DNA of 64,000 nt from Sulfitobacter sp. D7. Lineage in GTDB: Bacteria; Pseudomonadota; Alphaproteobacteria; Rhodobacterales; Rhodobacteraceae. Made by a program: the position numbers and the translations under genes. Location of the stretch: contig NZ_CP020694.1 of NCBI RefSeq assembly GCF_003611275.1, forward strand, positions 2,046,001-2,110,000. The letters run 5' to 3'. Of this stretch, positions 32,827-51,803 are shown piece after piece (the first letter of the stretch is position 1; every line of letters starts with the position of its first letter). A model generated the notes under the pieces. It was given only the letters and a program-made list of their open reading frames with translations, did no database searches and was not told the DNA's origin.

Positions 32827-32901
32827 CGGGCACCTCGTGGAAATATTTGCATCTGTCTCTGCGGCGCTTATGTAGGGTTTCAGTACGAAAAGGAACAGCC
32901 C

Positions 32902-33363
32902 ATGTCGGATGAGACGGACCTCATCAAGCTCTACTCCGCGCGTATCTTGGCGCTTACCGCAGAGATCCCGCATCTGGGCCGGATGGAGGCCCCGCAGGCC
33001 AGCGTGAAGCGCCGCTCGCCGCTGTGCGGCTCGACCGTGACGGTTGATGTGCGCGTTGAGGAAGGCCGTCTGGCCGAGATGAAACAGGACGTGAAAGCCT
33101 GCGCCTTGGGGCAAGCGGCTGCGGCCGTTGTGGGCGGTGCCGCGCCCGGTGCCTCGCTCACGCAGATCACCACTGCCCGCGATCAACTGCGCGCCATGCT
33201 CAAGGGCGAAGGGCCGGTGCCGGACGCCCCCTTTGACGGTTTCGAAGTGCTGACCCCTGCCGCGGCCTATAAAAACCGCCATGCCTCCATCATGCTGAGC
33301 ATCGAGGCGCTGACAGAGGCGATGCAACAGGCCGAAGCCCCGGCGGAAGCTGGCGAGCCCTAA
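32902..33363 (+). CDS. IscU/NifU-like iron-sulfur scaffold protein with two of three cysteines
   Basis: A 153-residue protein of the NifU N-terminal/IscU-like fold: [32 protein letters not shown] (C42) and [14 protein letters not shown] (C67). At the place of the third cluster ligand the sequence reads [13 protein letters not shown], with serine instead of cysteine, so it is unlikely to be a standard IscU. Such two-cysteine versions recur next to hisI in relatives, in my recollection. It may be a carrier or a specialised scaffold. The start at 32902 has AAAGGA upstream. Confidence 0.83.
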
Positions 33364-33401
33364 GCGCAGCCTGCCGCAGCCCACCTTCCCCAATATTCAA
33401 C

Positions 33402-33437
33402 AAAAAAACGCCGCACATCCTGCGAAGGATGGCGGCG
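33402..33437 (-). terminator. Intrinsic terminator of the small SOS-box gene
   Basis: On the minus strand CGCCGC-CATCCT pairs with AGGATG-(T)-GCGGCG around a TCGC loop (12 bp with one bulge) and is followed by seven T residues. It lies about 120 bases after the 42-aa ORF on the same strand and is the only minus-strand terminator downstream of ligA-recG. Confidence 0.88.
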
Positions 33438-33557
33438 TCAGTCGGCGTTCCTCATGTTGGGACCCGCTTTGCCAGAGGCCGACGCGGACAGGCAAGTCGG
33501 TGCATCAAATTGGGACGGATGCAGCAGACAAAGCGGCATGAGAGCCTTTGGCAGAAC

Positions 33558-33686
33558 TCAGATAAAGGCGGGCAGATGCAACCCGACGACCAGCATCACG
33601 ATCAAAGCGGCGGCCCCTGCTGCATCTTGCAGCAATGTGGCCTGCGATCTGAGGGCGATAGATTTCAGGGCAGTGTAAGTCATCAT
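33558..33686 (-). CDS. 42-aa single-pass membrane protein preceded by a LexA-type box
   Basis: The ORF reads MMTYTALKSIALRSQATLLQ followed by a hydrophobic helix (AAGAAALIVMLVVGL) and HLPAFI. The Shine-Dalgarno is the full consensus AAGGAGGT, four bases before the first ATG and seven before the second. There is a strong terminator downstream and a GTTC-N7-GTTC box about 60 bases upstream. I know no family for it. By analogy with the 29-aa Caulobacter SidA, an SOS-induced inner-membrane inhibitor of division, a DNA-damage role is possible; there is no sequence similarity claim. It lies just downstream of recG on the same strand. Confidence 0.75.
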   Translation of the reverse strand: MMTYTALKSIALRSQATLLQDAAGAAALIVMLVVGLHLPAFI

Positions 33687-33742
33687 CAGTACCTCCTTAT
33701 CTTTGTTGCTTCTTTGTTCTCATTTTTACCCATCCATGTAAA

Positions 33743-33757
33743 GAACTTTTTGAGAAC
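33743..33757 (-). promoter_or_regulatory. LexA (SOS) box, alphaproteobacterial type
   Basis: On the minus strand the sequence is GTTC-TCAAAAA-GTTC, an exact match to the alphaproteobacterial direct-repeat LexA consensus GTTC-N7-GTTC. A third GTTC lies ten bases upstream. It sits between the recG stop and the 42-aa ORF, in the right orientation and distance to control that ORF. Confidence 0.65.
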
Positions 33758-33785
33758 ATTCGCGAACATAAAGAGAGTTTAGGCG

Positions 33786-38011
<4,226 letters not shown>

Positions 38012-51236: not shown

Positions 51237-51803
51237 TCAGACTTGCATGATTTCGGCCTGTTTCGTCTCAAGCTGGTCATCGATGAGGGTGATGAAGCGG
51301 TTGGTCAGGTCCTGCACTTCGCCTTCCCAAATCTTCTGGTCATCTTCGGACATCGCGCCGTCGTTTTTGGCTTTCTTGATCTGGTCCATCCCGTCGCGGC
51401 GGATGTTGCGGATCGAAACGCGGGCGTGTTCTGCATACTGCCCGGCAACCTTGGTCAGCTGGGTGCGGCGCTCTTCGTTGAGCTCAGGGATCGGCAGCAT
51501 GATGATGGTGCCGTTCAGCTGCGGGTTGATGCCCAGACCGCTTTCGCGAATGGCCTTTTCAACCTTACCGACCAGACCTTTGTCCCACACGTTGATCGTC
51601 ACCATGCGCGGCTCTGGCACGTTGACGGTGCCGACTTGGTTCACCGGGGTCATCTGGCCATAAGCCTCAACCATCACCGGCTCCAGCATAGAGGCCGAGC
51701 CACGCCCTGTGCGCAGCGATGCGAACTCGGTCCGAAGCGACGCAATTGCGCCGTTCATCCGCCGTTCAAGATCATCGGTATCGAGCATAAATTCGTCTGA
51801 CAT
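51237..51803 (-). CDS. frr: Ribosome recycling factor
   Basis: A 188-residue [23 protein letters not shown], then [20 protein letters not shown] and the domain II block PLNQ-like [16 protein letters not shown]. The C-terminal helix holds [20 protein letters not shown]. The ATG at 51803 matches the usual N-terminus [11 protein letters not shown]. Confidence 0.97.

Follow-up and report, generated by a model that had tools for sequence, protein, structure and literature searches.

SOS-controlled small membrane proteins and dual-function transcripts are each already known separately. SidA of Caulobacter crescentus, a 29-residue SOS-induced inner-membrane division inhibitor (PMC4211646), resembles the candidate considered here in being a tiny alphaproteobacterial inner-membrane protein under LexA; however, the proteins here have 40-42 residues, and no structured 3′ RNA is described for SidA in the available text of two reports (PMC4211646, PMC12700426). 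This analogy is drawn from size, membrane span, box and class of bacteria only, not from a comparison of sequences. In Escherichia coli, DinQ, a single-span peptide under SOS control, depolarises the membrane (PMC3567139), and TisB depolarises the membrane after loss of LexA (PMC8145889); in the accessible parts of these papers, the DinQ/AgrB and TisB/IstR-1 pairs are SOS-controlled membrane peptides with an RNA component. That RNA is an antisense antitoxin, whereas at the present locus the RNA is on the coding strand, as its 3′ part. The dicBF operon of the E. coli Qin prophage encodes both a small protein and a small RNA, each acting on division (PMC10448788), and YneA of Bacillus subtilis and SosA of Staphylococcus aureus are further SOS-induced division inhibitors (PMC13396833, PMC6851548), as far as the available sections of these sources go. 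The likeness to dicBF is drawn from layout, and unlike that prophage operon, the present locus is a core chromosomal one with a LexA-type operator. YneA and SosA are small membrane proteins; both are longer than the protein considered here, and to our knowledge no structured RNA is known for either. The alphaproteobacterial CcsR/cuckoo small RNAs carry several hairpins with one short C-rich loop motif, CCUCC. The RNA described below likewise presents a short C-rich motif on several hairpins; it differs in its motifs (CUGYC/GUCCC), and has no match in Rfam.

We analyzed a window of 64,000 bases (bases 2046001-2110000 of the contig) from the 3.96 Mb genome of Sulfitobacter sp. D7; positions below are counted from the first base of this window. 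On the minus strand, recG is followed by a GTTC array, TTTACA, GAACAAAGAAGCAAC, a full Shine-Dalgarno sequence, a 42-codon open reading frame (ORF), approximately 120 untranslated nt, and a strong terminator:

33786..35876, minus strand: recG (Pfam RecG domains), the constant upstream neighbour
33764-33767, minus strand: extra GTTC, 10 bp upstream of the N7 box
33754..33767, minus strand: overlapping GTTC-N6-GTTC; three GTTC in all, at 10 and 11 bp spacing
33743..33757, minus strand: LexA-type box GTTC-N7-GTTC (GTTC-TCAAAAA-GTTC), on the same strand as the ORF and conserved in relatives
33737..33742, minus strand: TTTACA, a possible -35 element, within the near-invariant block GTTCTTTAC
33705..33719, minus strand: GAAC-N7-CAAC (GAACAAAGAAGCAAC), LexA-like, one base off, in inverse orientation
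33691..33698, minus strand: Shine-Dalgarno sequence AAGGAGGT, read directly, 4 nt before the first ATG
33558..33686, minus strand: 42-codon ORF; predicted short helix 2-13, then helix 15-41 including the C-terminal membrane span (approximately residues 21-42)
33402..33557, minus strand: structured 3′ RNA, made up of the long-range stem P1, the hairpins P2 and P3, and the terminator
33527..33546, minus strand: P1 5′ arm (single-sequence fold; covariation of helices 1 and 2)
33501..33523, minus strand: P2 hairpin, conserved loop with CCGUCCCAA (covariation, helix 3)
33479..33500, minus strand: P3 hairpin, conserved loop with UUGCCUGUCC (helix 4, the weakest helix, 72% of cells paired)
33444..33473, minus strand: P1 3′ arm with a GUCCCAA bulge (single-sequence fold; covariation)
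33402..33439, minus strand: intrinsic terminator, 14 bp with U7 (fold; covariation, helix 5)
32899..33363, plus strand: NifU_N-like gene (PF01592, E 2.8e-5), the convergent downstream neighbour

A preliminary description of this DNA had named the ORF, its Shine-Dalgarno sequence, the terminator and the N7 box, and direct reading found all four where it had placed them; the extra GTTC, the GAACAAAGAAGCAAC element and the structured RNA at 33402-33557 had been missed. We read the locus, from its conserved sequence, as a probable LexA-repressed transcript with two products, a membrane protein with a single span and a 3′ RNA that is structured.

The product of the ORF has 42 residues: MMTYTALKSIALRSQATLLQDAAGAAALIVMLVVGLHLPAFI. 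It was found in 22 of 24 Sulfitobacter genomes, its own included (E <1e-11), and the two genomes without a match are 64% and 87% complete. Its length is exactly 42 residues in all 22 genomes with a match. The reading frame, which the preliminary description took for a real gene, is not lost in relatives, and is under purifying selection: pN was lower than pS in 231 of 231 genus pairs (pN/pS 0.25; mean pN 0.16 versus mean pS 0.63 within Sulfitobacter), and the third codon positions are the most variable. A chance ORF is ruled out by the constant length within the genus together with the lower pN in every pair; as judged from this substitution pattern, the ORF is a conserved coding gene. The product contains a single hydrophobic stretch (residues 24-42, Kyte-Doolittle 2.27), the hydropathy value KD19 is >= 1.6 in 54/54 and 120/120 relatives, and the span defined by hydropathy corresponds to the last 19-21 residues in each of 120 further relatives. 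The single hydrophobic helix proposed earlier is thus upheld as that of a predicted single-pass membrane protein. An AlphaFold2 model places helices at residues 2-13 and 15-41 with a mean pLDDT of 89; such a predicted two-helix arrangement is as expected for a peptide of this kind and says nothing on function. Among 28 diverse members, T17, D21, A22, G24, A26, A27, L28 and L36 never vary, and K8, A25 and P39 hardly do; the product has 40-42 residues across relatives.

The public protein database contains 480 relatives at E <= 0.01, out of 501 candidates. The preliminary description had called the protein unannotated, and this holds for families, as no Pfam or NCBIfam family matched the window protein. 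It does not hold for deposition: relatives are in the database, where, among the best 120 of the 480, those with a name are called “hypothetical” or “uncharacterized” protein, or carry a bare coordinate label.

It should be noted that “family” is used here for Rhodobacteraceae in the GTDB sense, while NCBI places Sulfitobacter in Roseobacteraceae. A protein profile matched 161 of 198 family genomes, sampled at about one per genus (E <= 0.001), with one match per genome among the matches listed; the remaining 37 had no match at this threshold. Class-wide, the protein was found in 4 of 289 genomes, all four of them members of the same family, and no match was found outside the family among these 289. 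The neighborhood is stable: recG was present at all 83 loci examined, and the convergent NifU-like gene at 75 of them. A mobile or prophage gene was rejected because of this fixed place beside recG and because no match was found in plasmid or phage records (E <= 0.01).

GTTC-N7-GTTC can be taken as the LexA box of this organism, because it is present by the lexA, recA, uvrA, uvrD/pcrA, pdeM, mmcB and SRAP genes of the same genome, as assigned by NCBIfam and Pfam matches (those for UvrA, RecA and UvrD are to partial proteins, and the pdeM box overlaps the start codon). The genome encodes a LexA domain (PF01726, 57 bits); the matched domain ends at 1701523, and a box lies at 1701554, i.e., 31 bp past it on the promoter side. 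In addition, GAAC-N7-GAAC was found in all 15 Sulfitobacter recA promoters recovered (16 genomes were searched, one of which had no recA match). The assigned gene regions of the own genome belong to a set of 20, mostly with A+T-rich spacers, that were picked by eye from 91 matches, so that they serve as examples of the box and give no measure of enrichment; in several of the 20, no known SOS gene is seen.

The number of boxes is uninformative by itself. Exact GTTC-N7-GTTC occurs twice in the window versus 1.54 expected (45 of 100 shuffles reach 2), and genome-wide there are 91 matches versus 178 for the reversed control pattern. The box was thus dropped as stand-alone evidence, because its count does not exceed chance in the window and falls short of the reversed control genome-wide; its significance comes from conservation across relatives and not from its frequency. 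The second exact match in the window (51753-51767, plus strand, GTTCATCCGCCGTTC) has a GC-rich spacer and is probably due to chance.

The exact box in the right orientation, which the preliminary description had pointed out, proved to be nearly universal at this locus. It is kept in 21 of 22 Sulfitobacter genomes (the remaining one, L011, has N6), in 51 of 53 named loci, which overlap in part with those genomes (L099 has N6, and L102 has lost one half-site), in 30/30 loci L158-L187, and in 115 of 120 further loci, the exceptions being L246, L279, L296, L306 and L307. These further loci, approximately one per genus, come from the 150 of 161 protein genomes that had listed places, minus 30 already sampled. 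The N6 pair of GTTC was found in 98 of them, and GAAC-N7-[CG]AAC upstream of the ORF in 102; GAAC-N7-GAAC was present upstream in 9, lying approximately at the place of the downstream element in L245, L259, L261, L277, L287 and L306. Locus L246 alone lacks every box searched for; its ORF reads on to 75 residues, which may reflect decay of this copy or an error in the contig.

From 64 distinct sequences (of 75 extracted), the upstream part of the operator has the consensus TGTTC(G/A)CAAATGTTCTCA(A/T)AAAGTTCTTTACA; the downstream part, AnnTGAGAACAAAGnGGCAACA, follows the AAAGTTCTTTACA block after approximately 11 variable bases. A single base separates the downstream GAAC-N7-CAAC from a LexA box, and the element keeps C where LexA would prefer G (C in 60 of 64 sequences, G in none). 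Within the own genome, GAGAACAAANNNGCAACA occurs exactly at this locus alone and three more times with 2 mismatches; a control also gives four matches. A scan with the sigma-70 consensus found no promoter-like match in the conserved blocks, TTTACA included. As far as alignment can tell, the operator is composite, with extra GTTC half-sites upstream and GAAC-N7-(C/G)AAC downstream, and is almost frozen. That the box serves recG was ruled out by its position: on the strand shared by both genes, the box comes after recG and before the small ORF.

LexA presumably is the factor that binds the GTTC array. A different repressor would be in keeping with the extra GTTC at N6 spacing, with the frozen flanks, and with the GTTC block being unique in the genome (ATGTTCTCAWAAAGTTCTTTAC gives a single match with up to 3 mismatches); we consider this very improbable, however, since the N7 core is the box found at recA, uvrA, lexA and mmcB of the same genome. 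Conservation of the N7 spacer and of the flanks goes far beyond what a LexA site should require, so that a second factor may bind.

Between the stop codon and the terminator lies a conserved RNA of approximately 150 nt, in which a long-range stem encloses hairpins with C-rich loops; a further hairpin, P4, folds in many relatives and is missing in the window RNA. The minimum free energy of the window RNA is -61.4 kcal/mol (z -3.46), and none of 200 shuffles was as stable. The long-range stem and the terminator were recovered in each of 26 sequences folded singly, window included. RNAalifold, applied to 25 Sulfitobacter sequences aligned without structure, gave 33 pairs, 15 of them with compensatory changes. 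In 100 sequences drawn from loci with an RNA match, 31 of 33 pairs have compensatory changes, 92.5% of cells are paired, and the covariation score is 0.353 versus 0.036-0.049 for slid controls; these figures lean upward because the alignment was fitted to the structure, a bias that does not affect the 25-sequence analysis. The loop letters are conserved as well: CUGCCUG[UCA] occurs in 84 of the 100 sequences versus 2 in shuffles, and GUCCC in 97 versus 41. G-U cells exceed A-C cells (54 versus 11 in A2; 80 versus 45 in A4 without the terminator), which favors an RNA on the minus strand. The terminator is the stronger argument for the strand, because both strands fold about equally well (the sense strand is lower in 15 of 25). 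About half of the predicted transcript is, on this covariation, conserved structured RNA.

A covariance model built from the 25 Sulfitobacter sequences matched 52 of 53 named loci just downstream of the ORF (E <= 0.001; the miss is L119), at least 17 of the 53 having helped to build it. In the family, 108 of 198 genomes were matched and 90 were not at the same threshold, partly because of a strict filter; a local search in 50 loci with the protein and without an RNA match recovered 36 at E < 0.001, some of them little beyond the terminator. Some low-scoring matches within the family may also be terminator-like; for example, the match in L230 spans model positions 145-171 only, and that in L111 is 60 nt long. 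Class-wide, the four matches outside the family (56-102 nt, 22-38 bits) are taken as terminator-like. A known RNA was ruled out as far as Rfam 15 is concerned: for window positions 33350-33850 the best score was 19.2 bits versus a cut-off of 46, and across 15 loci there were 0 matches at E <= 0.1.

The reading frame and the RNA structure are both conserved and adjacent on one strand, and this layout suggests that ORF and RNA form one transcript. Of 112 RNA matches, 97 follow a listed protein match, at a downstream distance of 2-156 nt (median 12). Nine of the other 15 were read, leaving out six weak, off-locus ones (G198 twice, G156, G183, G081 and G155; E 5.8e-7 to 7.3e-4), and a membrane ORF of the same kind lies upstream in 8 of the 9. 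Three of the nine are in genomes with a protein match outside the matches listed; six, from five genomes, are in genomes without one. Five RNA matches from genomes without a protein match show a diverged ORF, and one, L314, has no membrane ORF upstream and looks spurious. An RNA without the ORF was not convincingly seen among the matches examined.

We propose, with a probability of roughly 0.6, that the locus is an SOS gene with a composite LexA operator, a membrane protein acting on division, and a structured 3′ RNA. LexA bound to the GTTC direct repeats upstream and to GAAC-N7-(C/G)AAC downstream would silence a promoter within the operator; DNA damage would remove LexA, and the transcript would then be made (we infer both the promoter position and the induction by damage). 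The strong Shine-Dalgarno sequence would direct translation into an inner-membrane protein of 40-42 residues with a single span, and toward its 3′ end the same transcript would carry a conserved RNA of several hairpins with C-rich loops, closed by a terminator. The protein would act in the membrane on the division machinery, like SidA in Caulobacter, so that division is held during DNA repair; action on division has somewhat less than an even chance. The CUGYC/GUCCC loops may allow the RNA to act on other messages, or the RNA may tune the life of its own message; activity beyond its own message is tentative, at best an even proposition; the odds for both roles are judgement and were not computed. 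A doubtful extension is a damage checkpoint with two arms, in which a LexA-controlled transcript beside recG, family-wide, would yield a membrane protein of about 40 residues stalling the divisome, and a 3′ RNA that, once released, would use its repeated CUGYC/GUCCC loops to silence messages via their ribosome-binding sites or to titrate an RNA-binding protein.

Other roles for the two products have to be weighed against this proposal. A peptide like TisB or DinQ could depolarise the membrane and slow the cell after damage, with the structured RNA controlling the dose; an SOS-type box, about 40 residues, one predicted span and a structured message would all fit. The known loci of this type have an antisense RNA, however, and a consensus scan, which is a weak test, found no plus-strand promoter-like site in 33350-33900; the structure here is 3′ of the ORF and was not seen to mask the Shine-Dalgarno sequence (the two were not folded together), and a fixed chromosomal place with no plasmid or phage match would be unusual for a mobile type I module. 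We regard this role as unlikely. Less likely still is regulation of another membrane complex needed during damage, i.e., a protease, a transporter or a respiratory enzyme. Many small single-span bacterial proteins do modulate larger membrane proteins, and contact between helices might be made through the conserved DAxGAAAL...L motif, but no particular partner is indicated, and the SOS link favors division or repair. For the RNA, the competing role is one confined to stability and termination, without any action in trans. Its position on the message, its end in a terminator, and the lack of a convincing RNA without ORF among the matches examined agree with such a role, to which we assign nearly half of the probability; a terminator alone, on the other hand, needs neither a long-range stem nor loop motifs, and the loop letters are conserved while the stems change.

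The family includes major marine bacteria. In the literature searched, which covered few subscription journals, no account was found of how division is held after DNA damage in this family, nor of the combination described here, its place beside recG, its family-wide range, or the RNA family. In the main text of a report on LexA of D. shibae, as available, “recG” and “sidA” are absent (PMC6473078), and a study of EcpR1 was discarded as a link to recG, which appears in its accessible part only as a cloning fragment (PMC4414408). The locus is a strong single candidate for the division hold, with one gene in one place under a conserved switch in most sampled genera. The folded RNA adds a second product to this candidate SOS gene, and it represents an RNA family that Rfam 15 does not contain; both the ORF and the RNA are short enough for annotation to pass over.

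Several other boxes may mark SOS genes. On another contig (G000:C3:30787-30804), a LexA-type box GTTCCTTTTTCGTTC (GAGAACGAAAAAGGAACA on the other strand) possibly belongs to a plasmid SOS gene. Two boxes, each at position ~801 of its region, adjoin radical SAM genes that are possible SOS genes: in L063 the box is at the start of a gene for a putative DNA modification/repair protein (TIGR03916) and overlaps the listed first codons, and in L065 it lies approximately 12 bp before an ORF of the PA0069 family (NF033668). In L072 (minus strand, 883-1266), the box GTTCCCTTTCTGTTC lies approximately 35 bp before a 127-residue ORF that matched no Pfam or NCBIfam family, possibly a nameless SOS gene. 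Finally, in the recA promoters of Sulfitobacter (L134-L148), a lone GTTC half-site recurs in 15 loci approximately 20 bp upstream of GAAC-N7-GAAC, with a partly conserved TCATA between the half-site and the recA box.
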